A DNA stretch of 64,000 bases from Membranipora membranacea. Lineage: Eukaryota; Bryozoa; Gymnolaemata; Cheilostomatida; Membraniporidae. Location: contig OU612067.1 in assembly GCA_914767715.1 (NCBI GenBank), positions 23,598,162 through 23,662,161 of the forward strand, read 5' to 3'. Made by a program: the position numbers and the translations under genes. Position 1 is the stretch's first letter. Every line of letters starts with the position of its first letter. Positions 14,588 through 62,727 of the stretch are shown piece by piece. Under the pieces are notes generated by a model, which was not told where the DNA came from, did not search any database, and was given only the letters and a program-made list of their open reading frames with translations.

Positions 14588-14731
14588 TTAGCGACGTGGG
14601 TTGAAACCAGGGAACAGATACAGCTTTCTTCCCTTTGTTAATGTTTTAAATGGTACAGCTGTCTGCCCTGAACAGCTATCAGGATATTTCTCTGCTAATG
14701 ATTTACTCTCTCGGCTCACTCTGTCCTGTAC
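14588..14731 (-). CDS. Caspase exon 5 (p10 end, stop TAA)
   Basis: Acceptor TTTTGCAG, then VQDRVSRESKSLAEKYPDSC, AVPFKTLTKGRKLYLFPGFN and PRR-stop. L-x-K-x-L-x-F is the classic end of the caspase fold. A polyadenylation signal AATAAA lies downstream at 14229-14224. Confidence 0.92.
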   Translation of the reverse strand, partial: VQDRVSRESKSLAEKYPDSCSGQTAVPFKTLTKGRKLYLFPGFNPRR

Positions 14732-17700
14732 CTGCAAAACAAAGTAGTAGCTTGTAGAACTATTGTGAATATAATAATTCACTTTGATGAGCTCTGCTTA
14801 TCCACGACTAACGCCTAGTTTGATACCAAGATATATTCCGGTGTGTCGTGCTAAGTTGGAATAACTTGCCTCTGTAACTTACCAATAACAACAAGAATCG
14901 AAAATGTCTCGTTTAGGCGCTATAAATAGTAAACATAGTCATACTGGAGAGGGGAATTGTCCACACCGCTGATTCGGATTGAATTAAACAGACGTGAGTG
15001 ACCCAGACTAACCGCCTGCTCATGTCATTCATAATGTTGATTGGGGAAAAATACCATAGTTTATCACATATGATTGTCATCATCAGCAGTAAGCGGAGAC
15101 GATAAGGTAGATCAAGGTTTTTTTTGTTGTTATGTCGTAACTTCATCTAGCGTCAGAACTAATATCACATATCTTTGGGAAAGAGTGAGTAAGTTGGTTA
15201 GTTAGTTAGAGTCCACTCACAATTTCAAAGAGACTGAAGAGATCTCTGTGACAGGCATGTTTAAGCAGTGTAGTGACAAGGCATCGTATCAGCAGTGAAC
15301 CAGTTACTTCATTTCTCATAGACATATAGGCTACAATCATATGCAAATACTGTGTAAATGTAGTTGTATACATTCAACAGGGTATAAGATGGCAATCGAT
15401 GCCACGATGTTTTAACTGTTAAATAAACACTTTAATATATAAAACATGCCCTAAGATTATTCATTGTCGAATAATGTTCTTTGTGGGATTAGTGCTGTTG
15501 ACCTTGTCTGCGAGGAATAAGTACTACATTATAATGGCAAAAATGATCTTGACTTCCTCACTCACATTCAAAGCTAGATTTGATCACCATTAGGTCCTCG
15601 GTATTGAGGTGGTCTATTTCTAGTGGTTGACTCCGATGTGATGGTTGCTCTACTTTTGAGGCAGCTGCTTGTATTGGCTTGTATATCTTTGGCTTCCATT
15701 GAACTTCAGTAATCGACTGTTTTGCGGCACCAGCCTTTCCGAGATCTCTCTCAACTGATGAGCAGTAAATTTAAATATTGTAATGTGTGACGAATAGATC
15801 AGTCAATTGCATCAAAACCCAGTTGAACTTGGAGCTATGTTACCAAAAGTAATGGGAAAACAGCCCGAGTTATAATACTTGCCACAAAAAACAACTTCAG
15901 GGTAGGCTCTTTCCGGGGAAATTTCATATGATATAATATACATTAACTGGTAATTTGCCCCAAAATGATATGGACCAGCATTAATTCAGCACCAGATATC
16001 ATCATTGAAATCTTGAGCAATTTTACATCCATACCTCCAGAGCAGGCTTGAACAACAATGACCTTGGGCTTGCCAGCCATGTTTGGAAAATTTGAAGAAG
16101 AGAGCTGGCTGTAAATGTCCTTTAGCTTGACACCAACTTGATCTGAGGCCAGGATAACATCGTCTTCACATCCATGAGTCATCAGACAGAGAAAGAACAT
16201 GCCAAAGTCCTTGTGGGCAGCACGTTTGGTCTCGTCTTGCACTGCTTTGAGCATTTCCTATAAAGTGAAACGTTCTGGAGTCACTAGCAAGTAAGTTAAA
16301 AATTTGACAAATTTATTTACCTGAATCATATTTCATATCATTCGTCTTTTTTTCCGCGGCAGCAAGAAACCTTCTCAAAGTAGTTCGTTCCGTTGCTTTT
16401 TTATCTTGTAAAACTTTACTCACCTCTGCAGTCACATCCTCAACAACATCCGCCAGCTCAAAATCGAGTGACTTCAGCATGTACTTCAGATTCTTCACAT
16501 CCATGCCTGATCCTTTTCGTCTCATCTGTAGAGCTCCTCTACCATTAAAGTTCTCTATGTTGATTATTAGAGCTCTGCCCCTTCTACCTCTACTCATCTT
16601 ATATATCTGTAAAACAAGGAGGGCAAGAGAGAGATAAGTAGAGATAGTGCACGCTACTGCATAGAGTATAATGTATAAACTATAGACGTGAAAAATAATA
16701 GTGTTGTACACCAGGGTCGTAGTTTAGCAACAATGGTATGGGATGTGGAAATCCTTGAGGGTGCGAAGTAAAGGGTATTGTAAGTTCTTAAGGCTCCAAG
16801 GCGTTTTAATGATATAAGTAGCATAGGGATGTCCCGAATAAGCTGATACTAACATGGAATATTCAATTATGGCATTTTAAGGCCACTCCATTCAGCATTC
16901 TAAGGGAGACGGAGAGCCCCAGCCTCCGCTAGAACTACGGGTCTGCACACTCTCAAAGTAACTTGGTTCTACACTAATAACAAATTGTGAAGCTCATTGA
17001 ATACTTTTACCAGACTAGTTTTGTTGAACAGTTCCTTTATCTCTGCTTTCTCTGTTGGAGCTGGGCGTGGTCTGATCTCATGTAGATGTGTGTCTTCTGT
17101 AGAAGGTGAGAGATAACCTCCACCATCCTCAGATATAACACTGTCTGAGCGTCCTCTGGTCAAAGTTGCCTGCTCTGGTTCATTGTACTCCGTTGCTGAA
17201 ACACAGCTTACCTCAGCTTGAGGCTGCAAATCTTCATTCTCTTCTTCACCTGGAAATCAAAATAATTAGACACGTACTGACTTGTTCTAGAAGAGTGGAA
17301 AATTCAGTCTATAAATCTCAGCCATTCCACAGTTAATATCGGGGTATGTGCCTAATCATTCAAGTCATATAAGAAAGTGATGTTGACAATTGAAATGCTT
17401 ATTGAGGTAAACTCACTAGAGCTGTCCGGCACTGAATTAGTTGAGACATATTCCTCAAGCTGTGATATCCCTGTTTCAGTGATGCTAAAACCTGTAAAAA
17501 ATAACAAAAAAAACACACAATTATACAATATTATGCATGTAAAAAAGTAGATTGTGAATTGTAAAACATTCATGTGCAATTTTATAGTAACATTGTCTTT
17601 TAGAAGTATATAAATTCACTCACAGGGAAATCCGAAGGGTTTCGGGACAACAGATCCAGCCACTTTATCACATCGGCTTGTCTCGTCTCCGGTGTAGGCT

Positions 17701-20700
17701 GTGAGGCGAGAATTGAGGCGCTCATAGCTGTAGTGTGATTGGTTAACTTTCTTGAACCATTTGGGATTGACCAGAGTTGTTGGTAACTTTTGTTGAGTCA
17801 GCAGACAGTGAGAGCAGTAGAAGACATGTTCATAACGGACTCCTTTCCACACAGATTCTAGTTCAGATGTGAGCTGCTTCGTTGAATCTAACAGGCTCTT
17901 CCATGCATCACAGACTCTCTTAGCTGGTGTAAGAACTATCAGTGACACCTGTTTCTTGTTCTGGTCATGTAACAGATATCTCATTATTCCATTATCTTCT
18001 TGTACTTGAGCGCCGTTGCTACCTGCTTCAACTGTATTGGCTGGATTGATGTGTATGTCTAGAAACCCTGCAGTAATCAGGTCAAAGATGTACCCAGGTA
18101 CCGACATACCGTTGAGATACAGATCGATTTTCAGTGGAAATAGCTTTGGGCTAGGTTTAGCTGCCGATATGATTTCACTGCTGAAATAAGGAATGATGAA
18201 CTTCATGCTGTCATCTTCTCTCCCTATGGGCCCGCAAATCAGGTGGAATGTTTTCAGAAGTGTTACGCCCACCTCAGCTGGCAGCTCTGATTCAGATTTA
18301 AGCAGATTGTGAAGCAGGGCAGCATCGATGACCCCTGTTGCTTTGAAATCCTCCACCATTTTCACATACTCTCGTTTGTCAACATTTCTGTCATAGAATC
18401 GGTAGGGCACAAAGACCTCAATACGATCAATCCATGTTTGGTCAACCCGATGATCATACAGTATCCCTATGAGAGAGACAAGAACATCAGGTCGATGGAA
18501 TATATATTCACACAGCTTGTCATTGTCTTGATACCACATTATTCTTCCTATTTCATGAATGTATTGTAGAATATATCGTTTTCTGCTCTTACGGAAACCT
18601 TTAACAATGTCAGTAACCTTAATAAAAGGCCTGTTTGTCTGCACGGTAAGATCCATGAGTGTCTTATACCAGCTACCTGGTATCTCCGTCATGAGCTGAG
18701 AACCGGCTTCGCTAAGGGCCTTCTTAAGAGAATAAATAACAGTTTCAGTTGAAGTAGCAGATAACTCCAATGCAATATTGATGAGGGGCTTAGATTTGTC
18801 ACTGAAACTTGTCATAGAAAAGAACGGGCTTGTAGGGGAACCAGCACTCTCTTCTGCCTCTATTATCTGGAGGCGCAGTTTTTCTGCTGTTGCGATAAGC
18901 TGCTGCTTTCTTATATTAAGCTGCTCTTCAGTAAGCTTATCAGTATGCGTGAGAACTAGCACTGGTTGACCAAGGTTAGGACGTGCTAAGTAGACGTGAG
19001 ATATCCATCTCATACAAAGATCTTGTGTTGCAGCATCCTCTCCTTTATCAGTCACCAAACTGTCAAACTCTGCTATATCTATGACAAGAAGCGGGACAGA
19101 CTGCGTTTTAAATGTCAATTGGTAGGCAAAGTTATACACTTTATGCCCACCAAAGTCAATAAAAACCAGTCTAGATTTGTCATCCACTTCCGCTTCACAG
19201 ATATTGAATACTCGAGTTGCTTCATCCAGCTTGGAGTCTGTAGCAGATCGTTCTGTCAGCACCCGCTGATTTTCCTGAATACTTCTAACAAGGCTTGTTT
19301 TTCCCGCTCCACTTTTTCCGATCACTGTTACTGGGATAAGTTTTACGTTGCTTTCTCGCTTGAACTTTAGATCATCTAGATACTTCTGTAGAGCTGCTCC
19401 ACCCTGTTTAACTACGGCGTAGGGAGGAGATAAAAGTGCCTTGCAGCCTCTAAAGTTGGAGTATGTCAGTGTTTTGTTATTGAGGAGGCTCTCAGGTATT
19501 GAGGTGAGTTTCTTGTTGTCGCTTACATCCAGATGCCATAACTGTTTGAGGTTCCCAAGGCTGTAAAAAATAACCATCTTAGTTAGCTGTGGTATGAATT
19601 TTGCTTGTTTTGAGAATATTAATGATAAATTGTTAACTATTGTGGATTTAGCAATGGAAGTCTGTCTGTGTTTTATGGTTTAGAGGTGAGTTGTTTGTTG
19701 GATCTGATATCCAGTGATTGTTAACTGTTCGAGCTTCCCAAGACTACCATAATCACCTTATTTATAAGCTATGTTTTGTCTTTCACTTGATTGGAGAATA
19801 TTAATTATTATTGTTGACCTATAAGCCTATAAACCTTTGGTCTAGAAGAATTGCAATAATGAAGAAAATCTTGGACAGATAATTGGCTGGGTTGAATTTT
19901 GAATGCTTGGTTATATTCTTTGTGTATTGGGACAGGATCTCTTCAACGACTATTTGAGGAAATAACATTTATTATGCTTATTATGTCTATTTCTTTCACT
20001 AAGACACAAAAATAGTGAAACAATATGGAAAGCAAGATACTGCATTGATGCGGAATAGGTTAGCCTGCTCGTATTTAATAGGACAGATATTTGTTTTAGC
20101 ATTTATTTTGATGATGAAAGTGTTTTGATTATCGATGCTTATGATCAATTTTCGGGGGATTGCTATTTGATATTTGTTGTCAGGCTGCTATATTGATGAA
20201 TTTCAGATCTTCGAAAATCCTTAATTCTCGGCCACTTGCATCTAATGAGAAAATAAAATTGCATCCAGACAAGACAAATGACTGATAAAACGAATGTTTT
20301 TATCTGATAACATAAGTCTGTCTATATTTTTGTAGTTAACCGTGGAAGGGATAATACGTGCTTTTTGAGCTCTTTCTCCCTAACCCATCTTTTGTTGGTA
20401 ACTTAAAAAAATTTAGTTACCGAATCACAATGGAGCAGCCATTCACTATGATCCCATTCAATTTTCCACGTTGAATGAAGTTGACCATTCTCAATTCAAA
20501 TGGATTCCTACTACACCATGATAAAACTTGCCTGCCCGCCTGGTCGGGCCTCCCGGATTTTTTATTTTTTTTCATGTGTGTTTATTGCTAAAGATAAAAT
20601 TGATAATATATTTAGACAAAGTGAAATTGAGTGAGAGAAAGGCATAAGATTGAATCATAAAACGTGAATAATTGCAATATAAATATGTAAAAAGTAAAGG

Positions 20701-26700: not shown

Positions 26701-29700
26701 TTAATATACAGACCTGAATCCTAAGCTACAGTAAAGTTGCCAGCAACTCCCCATAATAATGATAAATCATGACAATACAATTTGTTACAAGTAAACACAG
26801 AGAGGAAACAATACAGTTACAGTATATGATGAGTGATGGTGAGATAGAGGATATGACTCACCTCTCGGGTATACTTCTTAAGTCACACTGATACACATAT
26901 ATCTTCTTAAGGGACCTCATCCCTCCCAATCCTTCAGGTAATGTCTGAAGGTTCTTATTATAGAATATATCTAACACCTCCAGTTCAGTCAGTGAGCAAA
27001 TGCTGTGGGAATATAATGTTAACCAATAATTATATATAGTTTTCCGACTTAGATTTTATTACTGCCACTGGCTGAGAAGAAAATTAACAACAATAATAAT
27101 GACGGGATTTCTAGTGTTTGGTAAAATAATTTAATGTTAAATCATGTCCAATTTTGCATACAAAGTACCACTAACAAAAAGCAGGTTGAGACTTTGGACA
27201 ACCTTGATAAGCAAGCTAGGGGGCATTTTACAAGTGTGAAACATCTTCTCTAACAAAAGAGACAAGAAGCAAAAGAGACGAGAGGCAGTGGCATGTTAAA
27301 GGGGCCTGCAGGCTCTCAGTATCAATAAACCTAACTAAAACAGCAATACGACAGTGGTCAGTAAGCATAACAAACAGTTGATAGAGAATTTCTTATCCTA
27401 GTGATTTAAAATTAGGATTTTTTTATCAGGATGTAAAATTAACTAAGTTTGACCATGCATATTCAGAATACTACCGATACATTCTCATTCCTAAAATTAA
27501 ATATGTTGGGAGTTATCCTGTCATATAAATAAAGAAGATAACTACCTTTTGCCATGTGTATCAAAGGTGAACTTGACACCAAAATATTGCCTTTCTGAGA
27601 GAACCCTTGTATTATTTGTATCATTAGTATAAGATGTATAAAGTACAGATTCAGTTCAGTACATGAAACCCTGTTATCTATCTGCACCTGACAGGTACAT
27701 AATCTATGTCAACAGGTGTTAGATATTCCGCTATAGGACATTGTAGCGGAAACTGACAAATATTGAGTTGTTTTGTTGATAATGTTATAATGTGTTTTGT
27801 TAAATGTAATCACTAATTGGCTGCAGTTAAGTTTGTCTTGGTCCAAAATTCTGGAGTGTCTCAGTTCTTTTTGTGATGTGATTTTCACCCTGTGTGGTAT
27901 GCTCTACGATATTACTTCATTTAGCACAGTCTCTGGATACAGCAGTTACAGTTAGTCTCAGTCAACCATGATTTCATTCGAGTATCTTGAAATTGCGTGT
28001 TGATAACATTTTTGTGACAGTCACTGAGATAATGTTAGGTAGTAAAACATAGCCAGAGGTAACTATGTAATGATTAATGAGTAACACACACAAAAACAAA
28101 GAGCATTCATTATTTAATCTGTGTCTTTTGCAACAGCCGGTTGTTTTATCGGTTTATCAGGGGTAGATGACATGTCATGTAAAAGTATAGAAATGTCACA
28201 GGGACTACTGATAATAAGCATTCAGATTGGAAGTGATGACTTTTGGATGTCATAATTCTGACGACAGCTGCATGTGGCGATTCCCAACTGAAATAAGGGT
28301 CGGTATTTCAGTGTAAATAGTCATTAAACCAAATCATCTCACTCAAATTTGATGAAACCATTTTTAAAGCACTGCCCCAAAACTTGTTAAAAGTTTTGTA
28401 TATTATGTGTTATATAATACCCAAGTGCAATGTGTTGTTATCATAATATTTTGACATTAATTTTGATGATCACACAAAAAAAGATGGAATGTTCACCCTC
28501 CTTGCAAACAACTGAATATGAAGACGGGAATCCCAAGATACTGTTTAGTTGCCAGCAACAAGGCACAATAATATTGAATATGATTATATATTTTGTTACA
28601 AATAAACAGAGAGAGAAGACGATACAGACACAGTATATAGTGAGTGATGGTAAGATAGAGGATATGACTCACCTTTCAGGTATACTTCTTAAGTCACACT
28701 CATTCACATTTATCTTCTTAAGGGACCTCATCCCTCCTAATCCTTCAGGTAATGTCTGTAGGTTCTTATTATAGCATAAGTTTAACTCCTCCAGTTCGGT
28801 CAGTGAGCAGATGCTGAGGGAACAAAAATTTCATTCAATAATTATATATAGTTTTCCAACTTAGATTTTATTACTGCCACTGACTGAAAGGAAAATTAAC
28901 AACAATGACAATCACGGGATTTCTAATGTTTGGTAAAATAATTTAATGTTAAACCACGTCCAATTTTGCATACAAAGTACCACTAACAAAAAGTAGGTTG
29001 AGACTTTGGACAACCTTGATAAGCAAGCTAGGGGGCTTGTTACAAGTGTGCGGCATCTTCTCTAACAAAAGAGACAAGAAGCAAAAGTATCGAGAGGCAG
29101 TGGCATGTTAAAGGGGCCCTTATCAGCCTGCAGGCTCTCAGTATCAATAAACCTAACTAAAACAGCAATACGACAGTGGTCAGTAAGCATAACAAATAGT
29201 TGATAGAGAATTTCTTATCCCAGTGATTTAAAAATAAGGATTTTTTTTATCAGGGTGTAAGATTAACTAAGTTTGACCATGCATATTCAGAATACTGCCG
29301 ATACATTCTCATTCCTAAAATTAAATATGTTGGGAGTTATCCTGTCATATAAATAAAGAAGATAACTACCTTTTGCCATGTGTATCAAAGGTGAACTTGA
29401 CACAAAAATATTGCCTTTCTGAGAGAACCCTTGTATTATTTGTATCATTAGTATAAGATGTATAAAGTACAGATTCAGTTCAGTACATGAAACCCTGTTA
29501 TCTATCTGCACCTGACAGGTACATAATCTATGTCAACAGGTGTTAGATATTCCGCTATAGGACATTGTAGCGGAAACTGACAAATATGGAGTTGTTTTGT
29601 TGATAATGTTATAATGTGTTTTGTTAAATGTAATCACTAATTGGCTGCAGGTAAGTTTGTCTTGGTCCAAAATTCTGGAGTGTCTCAGTTCTTTTTGTGA

Positions 29701-41700: not shown

Positions 41701-44700
41701 TTTGGTAAAATAATTTTATATTGACTCAAATCCAATTATGCATACCAGTACCGCTAAGATAAAGTAGGTTGAGACTTTGGACAACCTTACTTACCAAGTT
41801 AGGAGGCCTGTTAAAAGTGTGAGGCACTGTCTTTAACAAAAGAGACGAGAAGCAAAAGAGACGACAAGCAAAAGAGACGAGAAGCAAAAGAGACGAGAAG
41901 CAAAAGAGACAAGAGGCAAAGGAGACGAGAGGCAGTGACACCTTTAAGGGGCACCTATCAGCCTATAGGCTCTCAGTATGAACAAACCTAACTAAAACAA
42001 CAATACACCAGTGGTCAGTAAGCAATACAAACGGTAAATAGAGAATCTCTTTATACTGCAATTTAAAAAACCAATTTTCTGATAAGGATGTAAATGCTTG
42101 GCCATGCTGATTATGAATGCTACATATAGGTTCTCATTTCTAAATTTCAATATGATGGGAGTTATCTTGTAATATAAATAGAGTAGATAACTGCCTTTTA
42201 CCATGTGCATCAAAGGTGTTTTTTTACTAGTTCAGTACATGATACTCTGTTATCTATCTGCACCTGACAGGTACATATTTTTGTCAACAGATGTTAGATA
42301 TTCTGCTATAAGACTTTGTAGGGAAAACTGACAATAATATTGAGTTGTTTTGTTTACAGTGTTTGATGTGTCTTGTAGAATATAATCACTTATTGGCAGC
42401 AGTTACAATATTCATGGTCAAATATTATGGATTTGCTCGGTTTTTTTTTTGGGATGAAATTTTCATCCTATGTGGTATGCTCTATGATACTATGTGTGGT
42501 CAGTTAGCAATACAAACAGTAAATAGAAATTTCTTATCTTAGTGTTTTAAAAAAAATACTACCGATACGTTCTCATTTCTAAAATTAAATATGTTGGGAG
42601 TTATCCCGTCTCATAAATAGAGAAGATAACGGCCTTTTACCGTACGTATCACGGAATAAATTGGCAATCAAATATACTCTGAGAGAACCCTTGTGTTTTA
42701 ATTACTAGTGAATGATAAATAAAGTACAACATTAGTCAAGTACAGATCCAGTTCAGAACATGATACCATGATATCTATCTGCACCTGACAGATACATATT
42801 CTTTATCACAGGTGTTAGATATTCTGCTATAAGACTTTGTAGCAAGAACTGACAAATATTTAGTTGTTTTGTTTACAGCATTTGATGTGTCTTGTAGAAT
42901 ATAATCACTTATCGGCTGCAGTTACGATATCCATGGTCAAAAAATACGGATTTGCTCAGTTTGTTTTTGTGAGGAAATTTTCACCCTGTGTGGTATTCTC
43001 TATGATATTACTTTATCGAGCACGGTCTCTGAATACAGCAGTTACAGTTAGTCTCAGTCAATCATGATTTTATTTGAGTTTCTTAAAATTACATATTGAT
43101 AACTTTTGTGACAGTCGCTGAGATATTGTTAGTTAGTAAAACATTTGCAAAGGTTTTTTTTTCTGATGAGAACATATTTCTCCTTTAAAAGACCACGCTT
43201 TATTATTTTCTGACATTAATCCTAGTAATGAACTAGTAGTACTGTAACAAAAATATTCAGGGATTAATTTATTCCCTCTTATCAATAATTTAATCAGCAG
43301 ACCTGAATCCTAAGATACTGTGAAGTCGCCAGCAACTCCCCATAATAATGATAAATCATGACAACACAATATGTTACAAATAAACACAGAGAGGAAACAA
43401 TACAGTTACAGTATATGATGAGTGATGGTAAGATAGACGATATGACTCACCTTTCTGGTAGACTTCTCAAGTCACACCAAGACACAGATATCCTGGGTTT
43501 TTGTTTGATGAAAACACATTCTGACATTTCTGACATTTAAATCCTAGTATAGAACTAGGACTGTAACAAAACTATTAAGCGATTAATTGACACCCTCTTA
43601 TCAACATTTATTAACCAGACCTGAATCCTAAGCTACTGTAAAGTTGCCAGCAACACCCCATAATAATAATCATGATTATATATTTTGTTACAAATAAACA
43701 CAGGGAGAAGACGATACGGTTACAGTATATAGTGAGTGATGGTAAGATAGAGGATATGACTCACCTTTCAGGTAGACTTCTGAAGTTACACTTGGACACA
43801 TCTATCTTCTTAAGGGACCTCATCCCTCCTAATCCTTCAGGTAATGTCTGTAGGTTCTTATTATAGCATAAGTTTAACTCCTCCAGTTCGGTCAGTGAGC
43901 AGATGCTGAGGGAACAAAAATTTCATTCAATAATTATATATAGTTTTCCAACTTAGATTTTATTACTGCCACTGACTGAAAGGAAAATTAACAAGAATGA
44001 GAATCACGGGATTTCTAATGTTTGGTAAATTAATTTTATATTAAATTTAACCCAATTTTCCATACCAGTACCACTAACAAAAAATAGGTTGAGACTTAGG
44101 ACAACCTTAATTACCAAGCTAGGGGGGCCGTAAAAAGTGTGAGGCGCCTTCTCTGACAAAAAGGACAAGACGCAATAGAAACGAGAGACAGTGCCCTGCT
44201 ATAGGGGCACCTATCAGCCTGTAGGCTCTCAGTATGAATAAAACTACTAAAACAACTGTCACATACATTGTATGTGACACGCCTATATTGCACTGTCATG
44301 GTTGCCATGGTCCTAATCTGATTAATTGTTATACTCTTCCGCATTTACTTCCATTTTTTGCACATTTAATTACCATCTAAATGCGGAGGTTCACCATCAA
44401 AATAATGACGTATCATCCCACCCGTTTCTATTTTTACGACCTATTTATACAGGTCAGTATAAAGAGCAGTGGTTTTTGCTTTGAAGAATCAGTTACAATT
44501 ACGAGTTACGATCGAGAATTACGTGTGACAGTTACAACTTGGCGTTGCAATTTATCAGTTGCCTGGGGCATTTGCCCCAGGGTGTAGTTCAGTAATAAAA
44601 TCATCAAACTGCCGAAAAACTGCATTCAGTATTTTAAAGTAATCTCATATGAACTCTGCCAGCAGTGAACTGTCGTGATCTTTCTCGATCCGACACAACA

Positions 44701-47700: not shown

Positions 47701-50700
47701 CTCAGGCCACTTTTATTTTTAATTTATATTAACGACCTGTTAAATACAGCACCTGATCTAAATTATGTACTTTTTGCTGATGATACAAACATTTTTAGTA
47801 CTGAACCTGAAGTTATGAAAAGAAATTTACCTTTGATTAAGGAATGGTGTATCACCAACCGTCTTGTTATTAACTATGAGAAAACCTTTCAAGTCCTATT
47901 TAAAGCCCAAAACAAAATTTTTAACCCTGAAGAATTCAAGCTCGAATTCGGGAACTCTATTTTAATAGAAAAAGGAACCACCAAATTTTTAGGACTTGAG
48001 TTAGACTCCAACCTAACTTTCCATGAGCATTTTAAAAGCCTTAAAAAGAAATTAAATTTAACTCTGATGATGCGAGCACTCCGTCCAGCCATTGACCAAA
48101 GGTCAATGGTTGACATATATTACAGCTTTTGTTATCCTCATTTGATATACGGATTATTTGATATACGGAGTTCTGGGGCCACGCAAGTGATAGCCAACTA
48201 CGACCAATACAGACTCTACAAAAGTGCTCTGCGAATCATTAAGGGAATTGGACCAGGGGCTCACATTTCTAGTCATTTTGAAAAACCAACATCAAGCAAG
48301 GAGAGAGGTCCTTGTTGAGCGATGGCATATCCTTGTTCAACAAGTACCTTTGGGGAGTTTGGACGGGGCCAGGGTGCGATCTCACGGTTGGGCTGGCGGG
48401 GCGTCTCTGGTCGTGCGGTGGATAGCGGGTACGGTGGGCATGTTTTGTCTGGGCTTTTCATGATGTTCGTGTGGTGTTTTTGTAATTAGCTAGAGGGTTG
48501 GCCGTCTCTCTAGTCACAGACTATCTGGCTGACCCATGCTTTTATTTACTTTCTCTGAACATTTATTTCTTATAATTTACAATATTTCTTTATAGCAAAA
48601 TACAAAAAAAAAGTTATCCCAATGAACTGCCTGTAGGCCATCAGTCACAATAAACCGAACTAAATCAACAATACACCAGTGGTCATTTAACAATAAAAAC
48701 AATGAATAGAGAATCTCCAATCCTGGTGTTTAAAAAATGATTTGTGTTTTAAAAGGCTGCAAAAGATGATAGAGCAAATGAGATGAATACACCAGTGGTC
48801 AGTAAGCAAATGGGACATATCAACCATCATGAAATAACAATGTTTGACCATAATGATTCAAAATACTACCAAGCGATTAATTGACACCCTCTTATCAACA
48901 TTTATTAACCAGACCTAAATCCTAAGCTATTGTAAAGTTGCCAGCAACACCCAATAATAATAATCATGATAATATATTTTGTTACAAATAAACACAGGGA
49001 GAAGACGATACGGTTACAGTATATAGTGAGTGATGGTAAGATAGAGGATATGACTCACCTTTCAGGTAGACTTCTGAAGTTACAACTGGACACATTTATC
49101 TTCTTAAGGGACCTCATCCCTCCTAATGCTTCAGGTAATGTCTGTAGGTTCTCATTATAGTATAAGTTTAACTCCTCCAGTTCGGTCAGTGAGCAGATGC
49201 TGAGGGAACAAAAATTTCATTCAATCATTATATATAGTTTTCCAACTTAGATTTTATTACTGCCACTGACTGAAAGGAAAATTAACAACAATGACAATCA
49301 CGGGATTTCTAATATTTGGTAAATTAATTTTATATTAAATTTAACCCAATTTTCCATACCAGTACCACTAACAAAAAATAGGTTGAGACTTAGGACAACC
49401 TTAATTACCAAGCTAGGGGGGCCGTAAAAAGTGTGAGGCGCCTTCTCTGACAAAAAGGACAAGACGCAAAAGAAACGAGAGACAGTGCCCTGCTAAAGGG
49501 GCACCTATCAGCCTGTAGGCTCTCAGTATGAATAAAACTACTAAAACAACAATACACCAGTTTTCAGTAAGCATTACAAAGAGTTAATAGAGAGTTTCTT
49601 TTCCTAGTGTTGTATAAAATCTCATTTCTACAATTAACTATGTTACGACATATCTTGTGATATAAATAGAGAAGATAACTGCCTTTTGTCACGTGTATCA
49701 AAGGTTAATTTGACGATAAACGATATTCTGAGACAACCCATGTATTTGAATTATTAGTATCAGATATATATATAGTACAGATTCAATTCAGTACATGATA
49801 CCCTGTTATCTATCTGCACCTGACAGTGTCTATGATTTGAAAGATATGTAATGAAATTGTTTAAAGTATATTAACAAGAAAATATAAATCCATTGCCTTG
49901 TTCCTTTAATTGTTACCAGCATCCTAAATCGCCGGAGAGATTCCCCCGGTTTTTTCTGATGAGAACATATTTATCTTTTAAATGATCACCTTTTTTCACA
50001 TTTAAATCCAAGTATAGAACTAGGACTGTAACAAAACTATTAAGCGATTAATTGACACCCTCTTATCAATATTTATTAACCAGACCTGAATCCTAAGATG
50101 CTGAAAAGTTGCCAGCAACTCCCCATAATAATAATAATCATGATAATATATTTTGTTACAAATAAACACAGAGAGTCACAGTGTATGATGAGTGATGGTA
50201 AGATAGAGGATACGACTCCTCCAGTTCGGTCAGTGAACAAATGCTGAGGGAACGTAAATTTCATACAATAATTATATATAGTTTTCCAACTTAGATGTTA
50301 TTACTGCCACTGACTGAGAAGAAAATTAAGAAAAATGGTAATCACAGGATTTCTAATGTTTGGTAAAATTTTATAGCAGTTTATATCCAATTTTGCTTAT
50401 CAGTACCACTAACAAAAAGAAGGTTGAGACTTTAGACAAGCTTAATTACCAAGTTAGAGGGCCTGTAAACAGTGTGAGGCATCTTCTCTAGCAAAAGAGG
50501 CAAGCAGCAAAAGAGACGAGAGGTAGTAGCACCTTAAAGGGTCACTTATTAGCCTGCAGGTGTATGAATAAACCTAACTAAAACAACAATACACCAGTGG
50601 CCAGTAAGCAATACAATCCTGGTGTTTTAAAAAACAATACTACCAACACATTCTCAATCCTAAAAATAAATATGTTGGGAGTTATCCTGCCTTATAATCA

Positions 50701-53700
50701 TAGAAGATAACTGCCTTTTGCCATGTGTATCAAAGGCTAATTTGACAATTAAAAAGATTCTGAGATAACCCATGTATTTTTTTATTATTGGTGAAAGATA
50801 TATGAAGTACAAAACTATTAAGCGATTAATTGACACCCTCTTATCAACATTTATTAACCAGACCTGAATCCTAAGCTACTGTAAAGTTGCCAGCAACACC
50901 CAATAATAATAATCATGATAATATATTTTGTTACAAATAAACACAGGGAGAAGACGATACGGTTACAGTATATAGTGAGTGATGGTAAGATAGAGGATAT
51001 GACTCACCTTTCAGGTAGACTTCTGAAGTTACAACTGGACACATATATCTTCTTAAGGGACCTCATCCCTCCTAATGCTTCAGGTAATGTCTGTAGGTTC
51101 CCATTATAGTGTAAGTTTAACTCCTCCAGTTCGGTCAGTGAGCAGATGCTGAGGGAACAAAAATTTCATTCAATCATTATATATAGTTTTCCAACTTAGA
51201 TTTTATTACTGCCACTGACTGAAAGGAAAATTAACAACAATGACAATCACGGGATTTCTAATATTTGGTAAATTAATTTTATATTAAATTTAACCCAATT
51301 TTCCATACCAGTACCACTAACAAAAAATAGGTTGAGACTTAGGACAACCTTAATTACCAAGCTAGGGGGGCCGTAAAAAGTGTGAGGCGCCTTCTCTGAC
51401 AAAAAGGACAAGACGCAAAAGAAACGAGAGACAGTGCCCTGCTAAAGGGGCACCTATCAGCCTATAGGCTCTCACTATGAATAAACCTATCCTGCATTTT
51501 AAAAAAACAAATTTTCTGATAAGGATGTAAATGCTTGGCCATGCTGATTATGAATACTACCGATAGCTTCTCATTTCTAAATTTCAATATGATGGGAGTT
51601 ATCTTGAAATATAAATAGAATTTAGATAACTGCCATTTACCATGTGTATCAAAGGTTTTTTCTTACTAGTTCAGTACATGATACTCTGTTATCTATCTGC
51701 ACCTGACAGGTACATATTTTTTGTCAACAGATGTTAGATATTCTGCTATAAGACTTTATAGGGAAAACTGACAATAATATTGAGTTGTTTTGTTTACAGT
51801 GTTGGATGTGTCTTGTAGAATATAATCACCTATTGGCTGCAGTTACGATATTCATGGTCAAATATTCTGGATTTGCTCGGTTTTTTTTCTGATGAAATTT
51901 TCATTCTGTGTGGTATGCTCTATGATACTATGTGTGGTCAGTTAGCAATACAAACAGTAAATAGAAATTTCTTATCTTAGTGTTTTAAAAAAAATACTAC
52001 CGATACGTTCTCGTTTCTAAAATTAAATATGTTGGGAGTTATCCCGTATTATAAATAGAGAAGATAACGGCCTTTTACCCCACGTATCACAGAATAATTT
52101 GACAATAAAACAGATTCTGAGAGACCCCTTGTACTCAAATGACAAGTGCAGATATATGAATTGAAGATTCTGTTCAGTACATGATACCCTGTTATACCTA
52201 TTTGTTAGGCGTTATCCTATGATAAAAATAGGGAAGATTACTGCCTTTTGCCATGTGTATCAAAGGTTAATTTGATAATAAAATATATTCTGAGAGAACC
52301 ATTGTGTTTCAATTACTGGTGAATGATATATAAAGTAAAGATTCAGTTCAGTACATGATACCCTGTTATCTATCTGCACCTGGCAGGTACATATCCAGCT
52401 TTGTCAACAGGTGTTAGAGACTCAGCCATGATACTTTGTAGGGAAAACTGACTAATATGAGTTGTTTTGTTTATAATGCTATGGTCCAAAACTCTAGAGT
52501 TACTTGGTTTATTTAAAAACCGTGATCTCAATCAAGTTTGTTGAAACTGAACATTGGAAATATTTTTGTAACAGTCACCTACATAATTGTTAGGAGGTAA
52601 AACATATCCCACGGTCATATAATGATTAACGATCACCGAAGGGGTCTCATCACATATTCTATGGTATCTACACCTGCTGTTTGGTTGTCAGTCACAGATG
52701 AGACCTCAGGTATTAGTACATGAAAGTGACAGGAACTACTGATAACTATCAGTGTGGTATGGTAGTGATGACTTTTGGATCTCATAATTCTGGCTACAGC
52801 TTCATGTGGTGAGGCCCAAATGAGATGAGAGAGGATAAATGGTATTGGTGATGGTATGTTTTGAAAGATTGTAATGTGGAAAGAATACAAAACACTAAGA
52901 TATCTTCGTCCTTATAATTGTGACCAGCACATTAGGGCTTATGAGACCATCCTACTTAACAAGCCATCTAAGGCTCAGGCAGCCCTTGAGGAGCTGTGAT
53001 GCTTATCAATTTCCCACTTGTGTCGACCACTGTTTTTTGATGAGGCGGTCGCAGCGAAACTGTAATAGGGTCAATCAAAGACATACCAAACAACACATGT
53101 TTACCAACTGTTCCAAACAGACCAGGCTAGAATGAAAAGCTTCCATGTACCAAACCAGAAATAAAGTCTTGCACAGGTAATTATGCCAGAAAATGTAATC
53201 TTTTGATGACAAGTCATTGCCCTTAATCTAAGACCGTTCCTGAATCCGAACTGTTTTATTCATTGTTTAATAACGCAAACCTCTATGGATGAACAAGTGG
53301 TAAACTCACACAGGTAGGGGTAGGGGTTTTGCAGGTATAATTTTTACCTGCAACACCTAGCTGACCAAACTTGAGCCTGAAAAACCGTCTTCCTAAAACT
53401 TTGACAAGGTCTTAACAATTTATCGTAATATGTCACAAAAGCTACATTGTGCGGGTCTCTGAGATTGCATTCTATAAAGTGATGTTTTAAAGTAGATATT
53501 AAAAAATGTATCTCATTAAACAGTCATATTAATATTAATTTTAGAGAAGATCTCTTTCTCTTTACCTCCTGCATGATAAATAACCGATAAGCTAGACATA
53601 ATCAAATATATGAAAACCTGAAAAGAGGTCACCCAGGGACAGGACACTTATGTATCATTCTAGTATCACAATGTGATTGATAAAACAGGCTCACCAAAAG

Positions 53701-55486
53701 AGACAATCTCATAGGGACAGTGTAGGATGTGGTGATACGATTGTGGATATGACTCACCTTTCTGGCAATCTACTCAGATCACACCCTCCCAAATCTAACT
53801 TCTTCAATGTTCTCAGCTCGCAGAGTCTATCAGGTAGGCTGAGTGGAAAGTTACTTGATAAATCTAATGACTCCAGTACTGTCAGTGAGAGGATACTGCA
53901 GATAAATATTAAATTTGACAATTAATTAATAATGCTCATGATAATTTTACAATTTTTCCTACAAGGCGCATTAATTACATCACATATAACCGGTGCACAA
54001 TATATATACTAAATACATTTCTATGAATTGGGTGGTGGAAAATGTATAGAAATGTCCGCGCATGGTGAATTATCACAATAGCTCAAGGTCGGTTAGCGTA
54101 ATGGCCACGTATTTAATTTCTTGCTTCTAATCTTCCAGGTTCACTTAACTCATGTCTCAGATCTCTAATCACAAATATAACTACTATGTAGTAACCAGGT
54201 GTGTCATCTATTTTGAGCCCAAATAGCCTGTTATTGCCAAAACTTTACTTCTACACATATTTTGTTTTTCACCATTAGACTTTTTCAGGGATGCTTTCTG
54301 GTTCCAGAACCCCAATAGTTAGGTTACATCAGGAAATCTGCTCAAGCTTAAAGGGATGATAACTCCAGCGATATATAATTTATTTTGAATGACTGAATTT
54401 ATATCACCTGACTTTGGCTTTCCAACATTAAACATTTTTTTGTTCGAAACAAACTTGCAAATGTCATCGCTCCTCAAATATATGGTACCACTAACCGTTC
54501 TAACTGATCTGAGTGTGGTATCTTTGTGAGTTTGAGTAGTTTCAGATGCGGAGCTATCTCATGTAGATTAGGTGGGATATTACCTCTGATCATTATTTGT
54601 GTGATTTGTATTCTCTGTGATGCCTCTGTCAGCTCTTGTAATGTCATCGACATTACTAACGCATCATAGGGAATCCGGTCAACTTGAGGTTGCCCAGCAT
54701 GTCTGTACCAGACACGATAACCTAAAAGGTGAGTAATTACAGAAATCATTTGAGTTCTATATTAATGTTTTTTTATTAATTTTTCTGTGCTCACATCTGA
54801 ACTCCAGTAAGGATGATCACGATTTATGGAACATGATTTAGAGGCATAAACACAAGTATTCCACAGTAAAGTGATCAATATGAGAGACTCAATACACTTT
54901 TAAAGGTTCTAAATCTATCACAACAAGATAATCGAGAAGACAATCAATAATCACAGAACATTAATATGCATAATATATTTACTTTTACTTTTTACTTTCA
55001 TTTTCATTGGTATGCTGTAGGCCTAGTTGACCTTACAAAAACAGACACTCAAACACCATATATATTATGTTTTCTGTGCCTTGAATGAATTTCATGAACT
55101 GGAGAAGGAACAACAATAATAATTATTCTAGGAGTCAGTTGTTGATCAAGAAAACAAATTGCACGCTTTACAAGTTTGTAATTTGACTTGACTATGTTTA
55201 AAATAAACTAGCCTGTATTCAGTATGACGCCAAAGGTGATATTCTTGGAAAGAGAATCTAGTGTGTATGCCAATAAATCAAGTGTAGGAGTTGCTTCCTT
55301 CACAATCATGTACTCTGCTCTTTCATTTATATCAACACAGCCGCAAAATTTAGAAAACTGGTTGCTATCAACAGAGGTATTTATAGTTTTATGAGTCTCA
55401 CCTTGACTTTCTTCCTCAGTGTTTCTCCTCAGCTCACTCTCCCTAGCACTGTCTGCCCCACTAGGATCCTCATTCTGTGATGTCAT
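14588..55486 (-). CDS. LRR-Roc-COR-caspase fusion gene (17 exons, minus strand)
   Basis: In transcription order the exons encode an acidic leader (ATG at 55486-55484), LRR exons, one large Roc-COR exon, two linker exons and five caspase exons ending in TAA (14590-14588). Every intron joins in compatible phase, and the exon lengths sum to 4443 or 4479 bases, both multiples of three (about 1480 or 1492 residues). Roc shows a P-loop GKSGAGKTS, DFGG switch and THTDK; COR follows with WYKTLMDL. The caspase keeps MTHG (His), QACSG (Cys) and both S1-pocket Arg positions. LRR, GTPase and protease modules are each known families. Their union is inferred from splice phase alone, so two adjacent genes remain possible. 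All six intact LRR exons may not enter one transcript. The likely role is a cytosolic sensor that triggers proteolysis or cell death. Confidence 0.75.
15221..15330 (-). CDS. Caspase exon 4 (p10, first part)
   Basis: Acceptor GATTGTAG. Encodes SYMSMRNEVTGSLLIRCLVT, TLLKHACHRDLFSLFEI, matching the p10 motif Y-x-S-x-RN...GS-x-I-x-x-L with its substrate-pocket Arg. Donor ATT|GTGAGT, phase 0. An inverted copy lies at 62023-62132. Confidence 0.9.
15566..15754 (-). CDS. Caspase exon 3 (p20-p10 linker)
   Basis: The acceptor TGCTCATCAG joins in phase 1 to give QACSGVERDLGKAG. The 62-residue linker ends in LEIDHLNTEDLMVIKSSFE. LEID resembles the LETD/LEHD sites used in initiator-caspase processing, so it is a likely interdomain cleavage site. 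Donor GAAT|GTGAGT, phase 1. Confidence 0.85.
16035..16257 (-). CDS. Caspase exon 2 (p20 catalytic core)
   Basis: Acceptor CTTTATAG. Encodes EMLKAVQDETKRAAHKDFGM, FFLCLMTHG with the catalytic His (MTHG in place of the usual SHG), LKDIYSQLSSSNFPNMAGKP and KVIVVQACSG with the catalytic Cys. QACSG replaces the common QACRG. Donor GGAG|GTATGG, phase 1. Confidence 0.93.
16424..16606 (-). CDS. Caspase exon 1 (start of p20)
   Basis: Acceptor TTTTACAG, then IYKMSRGRRGRALIINIENF, the canonical start of a caspase fold (Y-x-M...RG-x-ALIIN). Next come RRKGSGMDVKNLKYMLKSLD, with the conserved S1-pocket Arg, and VVEDVTAE. The donor GAG|GTGAGT lies inside a longer open frame. It is preferred because it yields DVTAE-EMLKAV, which matches the family TAEEM. 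Confidence 0.88.
16975..17249 (-). CDS. Roco-caspase linker exon 2
   Basis: Acceptor GATTTCCAG. Encodes EENEDLQPQAEVSCVSATEY, EPEQATLTRGRSDSVISEDG and APTEKAEIKELFNKTSLVKV, acidic and probably unstructured apart from a helical end. Two donors are in phase 0: TTA|GTGTAG (ends 16975) and CTG|GTAAAA (ends 17011). The sequence cannot decide between them. No DED, CARD or death domain is recognised. Confidence 0.65.
17417..17491 (-). CDS. Roco-caspase linker exon 1 (75 bases)
   Basis: Acceptor TTTTTTACAG, donor CTCTA|GTGAGT, phases 1-1. Encodes a 25-residue link, FSITETGISQLEEYVSTNSV PDSSS, joining the Roc-COR exon to the acidic linker. It fits phase on both sides, which supports one continuous transcript. 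Confidence 0.7.
17624..19560 (-). CDS. Roco-caspase Roc-COR exon (1937 bases)
   Basis: A single 645-residue exon. Residues 1-45 finish the LRR array (LGNLKQLWHLDVSDN). Roc spans about residues 70-285: P-loop GKSGAGKTS at 81-89, IDFGGHKVYNFAYQ at 134-147 (switch II, Gly present) and VLTHTDK at 202-208 (base recognition, THTD in place of TKxD). COR begins near 294 with PGSWYKTLMDLTVQTNRPFI and continues through HRPDVLVSLIGILYDHRVDQ. A C-terminal YCSHCLL is the C-x-x-C type element often found after COR. Roc-COR proteins work as GTP-controlled dimers; the key nucleotide residues seem intact. Acceptor TTTTTTACAG, donor CCCT|GTGAGT, phase 1. Confidence 0.93.
19680..19762 (-). pseudogene. Relic LRR exon
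   Basis: The minus strand reads SLGKLEQLTITGYQIQ, resembling the LRR start of the Roc exon (SLGNLKQLWHLDV). It has a TAG before it but then runs into an in-frame stop. A decayed cassette or chance similarity. Confidence 0.3.
19763..21980. other. Intron sequence between Roc exon and LINE
   Basis: AT-rich with no coding signal. A GC-richer island at about 20700-20940 and a CATT run at 21213-21229 stand out. The GC-rich part looks like an unidentified repeat. Confidence 0.5.
22052..22363 (+). pseudogene. LINE copy 1, ORF1-like segment
   Basis: 103 residues with a Pro/Thr-rich start (PGATSSLSTPPPQTQRQTPT) and a heptad-type coiled coil (LQKMIDKLDVKKAFMEERFN, LLRVLNRIDTIERKQKETED). No zinc knuckle is seen. 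Such coiled coils are typical of LINE ORF1 proteins. Confidence 0.6.
22506..24500 (+). pseudogene. LINE copy 1, endonuclease/reverse transcriptase remnants
   Basis: Fragments in several frames: endonuclease pieces (22510-22650, 22796-22900), a linker (22900-23404), RT fingers (23706-23918, LFKKGDKTRCNNYTPISILN) and palm (24017-24262, GVPQGSVL and FADDTNIF). Between ITN and SNLGT a stretch present in copy 2 is deleted. Not functional. Confidence 0.8.
24691..26860. other. Repeat-array intron between LINE copy 1 and LRR exon F
   Basis: Sequence of the duplicated intron family. It starts with TATCCCAATGAACTGCC, the same LINE 3' flank as after copy 2 (48620). No coding sequence is supported. Confidence 0.6.
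26862..27002 (-). CDS. LRR exon F (141 bases, nearest to Roc)
   Basis: Acceptor TCCCACAG, donor AGAG|GTGAGT. Encodes ICSLTELEVLDIFYNKNLQT, LPEGLGGMRSLKKIYVYQCD and LRSIPE. Its phase-2 end joins exactly to the first base of the Roc exon to make Ser (S-LGNLKQL). Confidence 0.8.
27035..28310. repeat. Tandem duplicate block, copy 1 (about 1.8 kb period)
   Basis: Nearly identical to about 28860-30130 at an offset of about 1824 bases. For example, the non-coding frame 27463-27687 differs from 29287-29511 at only two residues. Recent tandem duplication of an intron plus LRR exon. Confidence 0.8.
28673..28813 (-). CDS. LRR exon E (141 bases)
   Basis: Acceptor CCCTCAG, donor AAAG|GTGAGT. Encodes ICSLTELEELNLCYNKNLQT and KINVNECDLRSIPES. 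It is the 5' member of a 1.8 kb tandem pair with exon F. Confidence 0.78.
28860..30130. repeat. Tandem duplicate block, copy 2
   Basis: Partner of 27035-28310. Divergence rises after about 30130, where the unit boundary or a deletion lies. Confidence 0.8.
30240..36300. other. Long intron segment, mostly unique
   Basis: No LRR exon is recognised here. It contains fragments of the array repeat (for example about 34250-34450), a GTATAAAGTATGAA-like short repeat (about 35720-35780) and a perfect-stem hairpin at 31440-31477. Confidence 0.5.
36879..36911 (-). pseudogene. Truncated LRR exon (5' end only)
   Basis: The acceptor CCCTCAG and the codons for ICSLTELEVL remain, but the sequence switches to unrelated intron after about 33 bases, with no donor. 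Confidence 0.7.
38510..38830 (+). pseudogene. hAT transposase, BED zinc-finger part
   Basis: ATG start. Encodes SGVWDYFSVV, then VKCGTCHSEMSYLQGSTTSM and KLHLKKIH: a BED finger (aromatic pair, C-x2-C, H-x4-H). A stop at 38828-38830 separates it from the catalytic part. Confidence 0.8.
38874..39365 (+). pseudogene. hAT transposase, catalytic N-part
   Basis: Encodes DLQLLSMVEDSGFRSLMSEA, PTRKSLWNNIIPTLY and SITTDGWTSNNTTSYIAYTL, the ZBED/hAT signature with the first catalytic Asp (TTDGWTS). The C-terminal RNase-H part and dimerisation region are missing, so the element is a non-autonomous deletion copy. Confidence 0.82.
39896..39923 (-). pseudogene. LRR exon relic with internal deletion
   Basis: The acceptor and the first 26 or so coding bases (ICSLTEL) remain; the rest and the donor are deleted. 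Same type of deletion as at 45367-45394 and 50217-50243. Confidence 0.7.
41510..41636 (-). pseudogene. LRR exon lacking its acceptor
   Basis: The frame is open (SELEVLDTHRNPRLQTLPKG, LRRLPG) and the donor GTGAGT is intact. The 5' end is fused by deletion to downstream intron, removing the acceptor and about 15 codon bases. It cannot be spliced normally. Confidence 0.7.
41838..41933 (-). repeat. 16-base minisatellite (AAAAGAGACGAGAAGC) x6
   Basis: Six tandem units, one or two bases different from each other. On the transcribed strand this is a polypyrimidine TTTTGCTTCTCGTCTC array. Sister introns carry two or three units only. Confidence 0.85.
43451..43492 (-). pseudogene. Truncated LRR exon (3' end only)
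   Basis: The donor and the last 14 codons (LRSLPER-like) remain. The 5' part is replaced by another repeat-unit segment at about 43493. Confidence 0.65.
43765..43905 (-). CDS. LRR exon D (141 bases)
   Basis: ICSLTELEELNLCYNKNLQT, LPEGLGGMRSLKKIDVSKCN and FRSLPES, with intact splice sites and phases 2-2. Differences from B and C fall mainly on solvent-exposed LRR positions. Confidence 0.75.
44257..44695 (+). mobile_element. Probable solo LTR
   Basis: 439 bases beginning TGTCACATAC and ending CCGACA, with CAAC on both sides (44253-44256, 44696-44699). It interrupts an otherwise conserved repeat unit (AAAACAACAATACACC in sister copies). It has a TATTTATA box (about 44442) and AATAAA (about 44595). 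A near-perfect palindrome lies at its start. Orientation is inferred. The element family is not identified. Confidence 0.65.
45367..45394 (-). pseudogene. LRR exon relic with internal deletion
   Basis: The acceptor side and ICSLTELEE remain; the rest of the exon and the donor are gone. It shares its breakpoint with the 50217 copy. Confidence 0.7.
46246..48620 (+). mobile_element. LINE copy 2 (5'-truncated, same insertion as copy 1)
   Basis: Starts inside the endonuclease (GCEALRVRIGESGRDV), runs through SDHKPVCASF-type sequence in broken frames, RT and a 3' UTR of about 230 bases to an A-rich tail. The 3' flank is the same as that of copy 1, so the two are a segmental duplication, not separate insertions. 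Copy 1 has lost most of the 3' UTR. Confidence 0.87.
47587..48318 (+). pseudogene. LINE copy 2, reverse transcriptase palm/thumb
   Basis: A 243-residue open segment: GVPQGSVLRPLLFLIYINDL, LNYVLFADDTNIFSTEPEV (catalytic FADD), RLVINYEKTFQVLFKAQNK, TTKFLGLELDSNLTFHEHF and RPAIDQRSMVDIYYSFCYPH. Upstream RT motifs (47450-47580) are frameshifted away. CR1/Jockey-like by overall motif order. Confidence 0.85.
49059..49199 (-). CDS. LRR exon C (141 bases)
   Basis: Same structure as exon B, with ICSLTELEELNLYYNENLQT and KINVSSCNFRSLPES. Both splice sites are intact. The flanking intron is duplicated with it. Confidence 0.75.
50217..50243 (-). pseudogene. LRR exon relic with internal deletion
   Basis: The acceptor (CCCTCAG) is followed by ICSLTELEE and then the deletion. 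The base changes in CATTTGTTCACTG show it has drifted further than its sisters. Confidence 0.7.
51008..51148 (-). CDS. LRR exon B (141 bases)
   Basis: Intact acceptor (CCCTCAG) and donor (AAAG|GTGAGT), phases 2-2. Encodes ICSLTELEELNLHYNGNLQT, then LPEALGGMRSLKKIYVSSCN and FRSLPES. The cassette lies in a block nearly identical to the one around exon C. Confidence 0.75.
52000..53700. other. Intron between LRR exons A and B
   Basis: The first part repeats array-unit sequence (to about 52500). After that it is mostly unique. No exon is supported. Confidence 0.5.
53758..53895 (-). CDS. LRR exon A (divergent, 138 bases)
   Basis: Acceptor ATCTGCAG, donor AAAG|GTGAGT, phases 2-2. Encodes two LRRs: ILSLTVLESLDLSSN, LSLPDRLCELRTLKKLDL and LSRLPES. 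It is one codon shorter and clearly more diverged than the other cassettes, so it probably predates the array expansion. Confidence 0.8.
54496..54721 (-). CDS. Roco-caspase exon 2 (pre-LRR region)
   Basis: Acceptor CCTTTTAG. Encodes GYRVWYRHAGQPQVDRIPYD, then LRR-like turns (IMIRGNIPPNLHEIAPHLKL, LKLTKIPHSDQLER). Donor ACG|GTTAGT, phase 2, which reads through into the first LRR exon as RILSLTVLESL. Confidence 0.65.
55213..55486 (-). CDS. Roco-caspase exon 1 (N-terminal leader)
   Basis: ATG, then MTSQNEDPSGADSARESE, a polar acidic start, then VDINERAEYMIVKEATPTLD and LLAYTLDSLSKNITFGVILN. Ends at ACAG|GCTAGT, a possible GC donor that gives the phase needed by the next exon. No domain is recognised. 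An acceptor-like CGCAG lies just before the ATG, so the true start could be further upstream. Confidence 0.5.
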
Positions 55487-62007: not shown

Positions 62008-62022
62008 TGCATATGATTGTAG

Positions 62023-62132
62023 CCTACATGTCTATGAGAAATGAAGTAACCGGTTCACTGCTGATACGATGCCTTGTCACTACACTACTTAAACATGCCT
62101 GTCACAGAGATCTCTTCAGTCTCTTTGAAATC
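62023..62132 (+). CDS. Second caspase p10 exon, first part (paralogue or duplicate)
   Basis: Acceptor GATTGTAG, donor ATC|GTGAGT, 110 bases as in 15221-15330. Encodes the same residues SYMSMRNEVTGSLLIRCLVT (first codon completed by inference) and the rest of the exon. Only four bases differ from the other copy, all at third codon positions. No p20 exon is found upstream, so the gene it belongs to is incomplete or uses distant exons. Confidence 0.75.
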
Positions 62133-62583
62133 GTGAGTGAGACTTTATCATCAACTGTTATTTTCTGGAATTGAAGAAATATACGAAAGTGAAGTACATT
62201 ACACGGCGCCAAAATATTATGAATATAGTTTCGTTGCGCAATGATTTTACTGGCGTTGCAAGGTTATTTTATTTCTAAAATATAACTCATAATAATATAC
62301 TTGCGATCATAATTGACTCCTAATGGTTGTTAACGACCGACCGAGTGATGGTATATTTCCCCAACAATTTATGAACCACATAATCTGGGGGGGGGGGGGG
62401 GGAATTAGTTAAGATGAATCCCATATCTTATTTGACCATGACCACCTAGAATTTTTCTCAAACTTGTTTGTTTGGACCGCTAACAAAGTAACAAGGGAGG
62501 GACTTGTCTTAGTCATGAAGATCCAACAAATGTGAAATCTCATATTCACAAATATACTATTGAGACACTACTGTGTGTTGCAG

Positions 62584-62727
62584 GTACAGGACAGAGTAAG
62601 CAGAGAGAGTAAATCATTAGCAGAGAAATATCCTAATAGCTGTTCAGGGCAGACAGCTGTACCATTTGAAACATTGACTAAGGGAAGAAAGCTGTATCTG
62701 TTTCCTGGGTACAACCCACGTCGCTAA
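62584..62727 (+). CDS. Second caspase p10 exon, end with TAA
   Basis: The acceptor GTTGCAG precedes VQDRVSRESKSLAEKYPNSC, AVPFETLTKGRKLYLFPGYN and PRR-stop. 144 bases as in the minus-strand copy. Nine base changes separate the two: six silent and three amino-acid changes (D/N, K/E, F/Y). Confidence 0.78.
   Translation, partial: VQDRVSRESKSLAEKYPNSCSGQTAVPFETLTKGRKLYLFPGYNPRR

Follow-up and report, generated by a model that had tools for sequence, protein, structure and literature searches.

In the window analysed here, a stretch of 64,000 nucleotides from the bryozoan Membranipora membranacea, 16 exons on the minus strand, between 55486 and 14588, read as one gene, whose joined open frame of 1417 residues is free of stops and encodes, in this order, an N-terminal piece, LRRs, Roc, COR, an acidic linker and a caspase. 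Judged by its sequence, this is a real gene and a real LRR-Roc-COR-caspase fusion, shared with a named bryozoan (Watersipora subatra) in which the predicted Roco-caspase gene family has several members. It is likely, in our assessment, that the window holds one intact Roco-caspase gene in which an LRR sensor and a Roc-COR GTPase and dimer module are connected, by an acidic linker ~100 residues long, to a C-terminal caspase of the animal type that would serve as a proximity-activated effector; this reading draws support from the gene model, the homology of the modules and of their junction, the catalytic residues, the Roc-COR fold and the several paralogues in one bryozoan. More tentatively, and with confidence just short of even, we propose that these proteins constitute a bryozoan one-chain death switch, that is, LRR-Roc-COR-caspase receptors spread through the genome, in which GTPase-driven dimerisation would activate a built-in caspase and duplication of LRR exons would vary sensing, and which would have arisen separately from their bacterial counterpart.

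Roco proteins matter through LRRK2, and how Roc-COR drives an effector is debated. If the proposal is true, the window protein would be, as far as searched, the first animal Roco with a caspase effector, and an animal counterpart, separately evolved, of the bacterial LRR-Roc-COR-caspase proteins. An effector activated by the pairing of two copies would let protease activity report the dimer state of Roc-COR. Such a family would further show that an animal lineage has swapped an adaptor-based death pathway for one protein, a replacement already suggested for bacteria, and bryozoans, a phylum with little-studied immunity, would gain a candidate family of immune receptors.

Gene model

All 15 introns are GT-AG, one of them extends over ~15 kb, and the exon phases are compatible throughout. 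Two N-terminal exons are followed by six LRR exons, a single exon of 1937 bp carrying LRR, Roc and COR, two linker exons and five caspase exons (Table 1); that the predicted transcript uses all six LRR exons is a reading of the gene model. The earlier note had counted seventeen exons in compatible phases on one strand, of which the strand and the phases hold, while the number in the final model is 16. A candidate for a 17th exon, an LRR-like piece at 41637-41509, was rejected as a decayed copy because its acceptor gives the wrong phase. Exon 1 is the least certain, with little homology and a best identity of 8 of 28 residues (to P0003, one of the Watersipora proteins described below), and exon 2 matches the N-terminus of another of them, P0009 (residues 56-127, 38.7% identity, E 1.9e-4 by tblastn). 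Residues 1-6 of P0009 read, by eye, MGCSLS, which we take to resemble an N-terminal acylation signal that would place that paralogue at the membrane.

Table 1. Exons of the predicted Roco-caspase gene, in window coordinates
Feature	Position	Strand	Content
Exon 1	55402..55486	-	Start codon and short polar N-terminus; phase-compatible
Exon 2	54496..54721	-	N-terminal piece, begins VWYRHAGQPQVDRIP
Exon 3	53758..53895	-	LRR, phase 2-2
Exon 4	51008..51148	-	LRR, phase 2-2
Exon 5	49059..49199	-	LRR; identical to exon 4 at 138/141 bases
Exon 6	43765..43905	-	LRR, phase 2-2
Exon 7	28673..28813	-	LRR, phase 2-2
Exon 8	26862..27002	-	LRR, phase 2-2
Exon 9	17624..19560	-	Last LRR, Roc GTPase (GKSGAGKTS, DFGGH, THTDK), COR-A, COR-B
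Exon 10	17417..17491	-	Start of COR-caspase linker
Exon 11	17011..17249	-	Acidic linker, ends AEIKELFNKTSL immediately before caspase
Exon 12	16424..16606	-	Caspase p20 start (IYKMSRGRRGRALIINIENF, p20 Arg)
Exon 13	16035..16257	-	Caspase catalytic His (MTHG) and Cys (QACSG)
Exon 14	15566..15754	-	p20-p10 linker with VERD and LEID, p10 start
Exon 15	15221..15330	-	p10 with S1 Arg (MSMR) and HACHRD
Exon 16	14588..14731	-	p10 end (LYLFPGFNPRR, stop)

Relatives in Watersipora subatra and in metagenomes

Protein searches, a step that the earlier note had suggested, returned nine annotated Watersipora subatra proteins (P0001-P0009) with all or part of Roc-COR and a caspase. These proteins lead from LRR or Roc-COR through the linker into the caspase, in the same order of Roc-COR, linker and caspase as the window protein, to which they are 25-35% identical in Roc-COR and 35-43% identical in the caspase. 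All nine score above the Peptidase_C14 cutoff, and six of them above that of an LRR family; the models of P0002 and P0004 are without the LRR part, and that of P0004 is also without the start of Roc. The source annotations read 'malignant fibrous histiocytoma-amplified sequence 1 homolog' or 'uncharacterized protein', the MFHAS1 label carried by some of these relatives being a source annotation name, and a caspase is named in none of the annotations shown. The source sequences of the nine proteins have seven different sizes, two of which agree with chromosomes 3 and 4 (75.93 and 67.13 Mb) as given in the accessible part of PMC12902671, where poly(A) RNA-seq for Watersipora subatra is also recorded.

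Across three protein searches, two of which scored the ~8000 best candidates, the fusion was found in Watersipora alone. Since individual searches overlooked members, one returning neither P0001 nor P0002 and another none of P0001, P0003 and P0004, nine is a lower bound, and restriction to Watersipora is not implied. The search without P0001, P0003 and P0004 also gave 13 Roc-COR fragments from metagenomes (P0010-P0022), on contigs of 2.6 to 9.6 kb and without a caspase. Five of the six that were printed (P0010, P0011, P0012, P0017 and P0019, not P0022) end at, or within ~50 residues past, the motif at the end of window exon 9, so that these fragments look like single exons and are uninformative on the caspase. 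In the Roc-COR tree, the window protein groups with the 13 fragments in a starred, 14-member set; all nine Watersipora rows fall outside it, which points to several copies on both sides. Roc-COR and caspase trees of 10 proteins, compared to judge whether there was a single fusion event, share starred forks (P0001 with P0002, and P0004 to P0006), with P0003 and the window protein on long branches.

The junction between COR and caspase

That the Roco and caspase parts belong to one gene, as first proposed from the window alone, is corroborated by the nine single-chain Watersipora proteins, which align with the window through COR, linker and caspase, and by the homology of the exon 11 linker. A linker-only profile, made from the nine Watersipora COR-caspase linkers and containing neither domain, was searched against 2046 six-frame window ORFs of at least 20 residues, among which the exon 11 ORF came first (E 0.0019), followed by an ORF at E 4.2 and, as a weak third, by the exon 10 ORF (E 4.9).

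When exon 11 is read through, a stop is met at 16971-16969, giving a Roc-COR protein without the caspase, and a caspase-less isoform is therefore possible. The same stop would also suit two neighbouring genes, a Roco gene ending there and a separate caspase gene beginning near 16606, where an ATG forms the fourth codon of exon 12 (IYKM). We regard such a pair as very improbable, however, because the exon phases fit, because AEIKELFNKTSL, with which exon 11 closes, shares homology with the stretch directly preceding the caspase in the nine single-chain proteins, and because a caspase on its own would start at the extreme edge of the fold, without a prodomain.

The Roc-COR module

The Pfam Roc profile (PF08477) scores 27.6 bits on the final protein, against a cutoff of 27, and 29.3 bits on the Roc-COR piece alone; the P-loop GxxxxGK[ST] is intact, DFGGH and THTDK are present, and COR follows directly after Roc. 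An intact Roc GTPase had been claimed, and these features bear it out; the COR, claimed as well, is supported by a structure model of the Roc-COR exon (pLDDT 82), which matches LRRK2 and the C. tepidum Roco over ROC, COR-A and COR-B, with moderate, model-scaled TM-scores of 0.38 to 0.51 in the best 17 matches to solved Rocos. LRRK1 and LRRK2, which like the window protein have LRR, ROC, COR-A and COR-B, are among the closest solved folds (exon residues 1-601). Their effector is a kinase, with WD40, and the window caspase sits where LRRK proteins carry that kinase. A model of full-length P0005 was poor (pLDDT 48, 5 sequences in the alignment).

At E values up to 1, neither NACHT nor NB-ARC, the domains of NLR and STAND receptors, was found in the window protein; nSTAND1 matched only its P-loop (E 0.18, below cutoff), and NACHT was matched weakly by 2 of 14 Roc-COR rows (best E 0.023). 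Bacterial defence models gave two weak matches to the Roc-COR exon, and none to P0005 or P0007.

Seven of the nine Watersipora relatives retain GK[ST], including P0002, which begins inside the loop; the P-loop is lost in P0003, implying that GTP binding is not kept in every family member, and the sequence of P0004 starts after it. The Roc profile is below cutoff or unreported in all nine, so that Roc in these proteins rests on alignment. P0003, which has no working P-loop yet keeps the caspase residues examined, would fit an arrangement with the same gene model in which LRR and Roc-COR form an inhibitory scaffold and release of the LRR alone activates the caspase, GTP hydrolysis not being the switch. 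The retention of GK[ST] in the window and in seven Watersipora proteins, one of the other two being truncated, argues against this arrangement, which appears rather improbable.

The caspase module

Peptidase_C14 (PF00656) scores 129.8 bits on the window protein over profile positions 1-216 of 233, and solved caspases were matched by sequence, in line with a p20 and p10 caspase fold. The complete caspase with His, Cys and S1 Arg described in the earlier note is confirmed by MTHG, QACSG, RKGS and MSMR, residues from which the domain is apparently catalytic. Taking the window and the nine Watersipora proteins together, all 10 retain the catalytic His and Cys as well as the p20 Arg, and 9 of 10 retain the p10 Arg, a Lys occupying the S1 Arg position in P0009; along with the loss of the P-loop in P0003, this substitution suggests that some paralogues may be partly inactive. 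The window caspase resembles animal caspases (ancestral effector caspase, E 4.7e-20), and caspases, apopain or CED-3 make up the best 60 of its 180 matches. Within p10, the motif HACHRD is identical in 7 of the 10 proteins, with the variants HSNHRD, HSCHRD and HSSHRD, and is a possible signature of this Roco-linked caspase group.

Initiator caspases are activated by proximity. The N-terminal death-fold prodomain of CARD/DED initiator caspases is absent from the window protein, where Roc-COR occupies that place, and CARD, DED and the death domain were not found in it at E up to 1, as would be expected if Roc-COR replaces adaptor recruitment. The p20-p10 linker contains two Asp sites with Glu at P3 (VERD and LEID). 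No Asp with Glu at P3 was found in the COR-caspase linker of the window protein; one is present there in 7 of the 9 Watersipora proteins, P0003 and P0006 being the exceptions.

The Trp in the SWR of aligned effector caspases is Met, Tyr, Ala, Ile or Thr in the window and Watersipora caspases, and with this Trp before the S1 Arg replaced, the choice of substrate may be a different one. Some caspases are known to act outside cell death, and a further reading is a regulated signalling protease, fused and switched in the same way and cutting a specific partner without killing the cell; this reading overlaps with the one we prefer and differs from it in outcome only, and we consider it unlikely.

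LRR exons and their copies

Pfam recognises LRR in the final protein. The six LRR exons are 138-141 bp long (about two LRRs each), and every one is flanked by phase-2 introns. When the minus strand was scanned for open phase 2-2 exons measuring 110-180 bp and bounded by fair splice sites, it gave 6 candidates, which are the same six exons. The segments holding exons 4, 5 and 6 are 97-98% alike, and the three pairs that these exons form differ by 0 synonymous versus 3, 6 and 8 nonsynonymous changes. Five residues vary among them (13, 16, 24, 35 and 38), of which, by our reading of the repeat, residues 13, 35 and 38 presumably lie at or adjoin the LxLxx strand. In comparisons of exon with flanking intron divergence, p was below 0.05 in 1 of 10 LRR exon pairs (p 0.027, uncorrected), and the pairs involving exon 7 or 8 gave no significant excess of exon over flanking intron divergence. 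We read these counts as a hint, and only a hint, of diversifying selection on the LRR exons, and their weakness counts against the immune role proposed below.

The introns also contain partial or decayed copies of LRR exons, at least six of them, on the minus strand (at 50243, 45394, 43492, 41634, 39923 and 36911). Such decay, and a partial caspase copy (exons 15 and 16) at 62022-62725, might raise the suspicion that the gene itself is decaying or a decoy without function, which we consider barely credible given that 1417 codons are open and that none of the catalytic or P-loop residues examined has been lost.

Comparison with known systems

As far as searched, the fusion has not been described in animals, and a precedent for its architecture exists in bacteria (PMC8195603, in the part of the text available). 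The earlier note knew of no such architecture; precedents are in print with the bacterial LRR-Roc-COR-caspase proteins and the LRR-caspase hybrids of amphioxus (PMC2575513, likewise in part). In bacterial LRR-AP-GTPase-COR proteins, the effector at the C-terminus is drawn from at least 24 domains, including caspase and trypsin, a single bacterium can hold several paralogues, and a role against invaders has been proposed, according to the available text of PMC8195603 (eLife 2021). The caspase-bearing proteins described there resemble the window protein in that a single chain runs from LRR through Roc and COR to a C-terminal caspase; the effector of the bacterial fusions varies, whereas the window holds an intron-bearing gene with a QACxG caspase that matches animal caspases. 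One pattern scan of 84,980 prokaryotic species for a Roc-COR relative gave 132 pattern matches, none confirmed, and one scan of viral contigs gave 51, again none confirmed.

In the LRRs-caspase and TNFR-caspase hybrids of amphioxus (PMC2575513, 2008, accessible part), as in the window protein, a recognition domain is fused directly to a caspase that reportedly keeps QACXG, forming a shortcut from recognition to death; they differ in that the word Roc is absent from the available text of that paper. Brown algal ROCO proteins, as presented in the accessible part of PMC11378527 (2024), likewise have LRRs in separate, shuffling phase-2 exons, but these are 72 bp long with one LRR each, compared with 138-141 bp and about two LRRs in the window. 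In their group 3 the C-terminus bears an additional peptidase domain, IPR009003, which is not a caspase, and the word caspase is absent from the main text of that paper as available. Among other animals, Rocos of Trichoplax carry CARD and TIR among others, with caspase occurring once, in an expansion of CARD, in the available text of PMC4104024 (2014), and ROC-COR with TIR is reported from Aplysia (PMC9334734, in part). No recognisable paper on an animal Roc-COR-caspase was found in the largely open-access literature searched.

Proposed mechanism

Roco proteins dimerise via COR, a property linked to nucleotide state. Combined with the proximity activation of initiator caspases, this makes the simplest scheme one in which an LRR-driven state of Roc-COR pairs the caspases. 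A ligand would bind the LRR array, and sensing by the LRRs would change the nucleotide and dimer state of Roc-COR, the pairing of which would unite two caspase domains and activate them in the manner of initiator caspases. Cleavage after Asp in the p20-p10 linker, at VERD and LEID, and perhaps in the COR-caspase linker, would then mature or free the protease. In this scheme we infer ligand sensing, GTP control, proximity activation, autoprocessing and an immune role from the modules present, and the likely setting would be innate immunity or the death of infected cells. Such a chain would act as sensor, switch and executioner at once and would bypass adaptors.

Other features of the window

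Caspase exons 15 and 16 recur in inverted orientation on the plus strand, at 62022-62150 and 62582-62725, where the last exon and its flank are ~86% identical across about 600 bp; further upstream the window yielded neither a p20 nor a Roc-COR exon for this second copy, which therefore looks like a fragment. A neighbouring gene on the plus strand (2455-9460) has several CUB-domain exons, CUB being present in 5 of 5 ORFs tested. Two copies of a LINE-like element, 93% identical, lie in introns on the plus strand at 22484-23845 and 46245-47601. No reverse transcriptase domain was found in the ORFs at 22787-23401 and 46950-47429; the ORF at 47551-48315, which adjoins the second copy, carries one. 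On the plus strand at 38456-39365, ORFs with a weak, below-cutoff match to the BED zinc finger probably represent, by eye, a DNA transposon.
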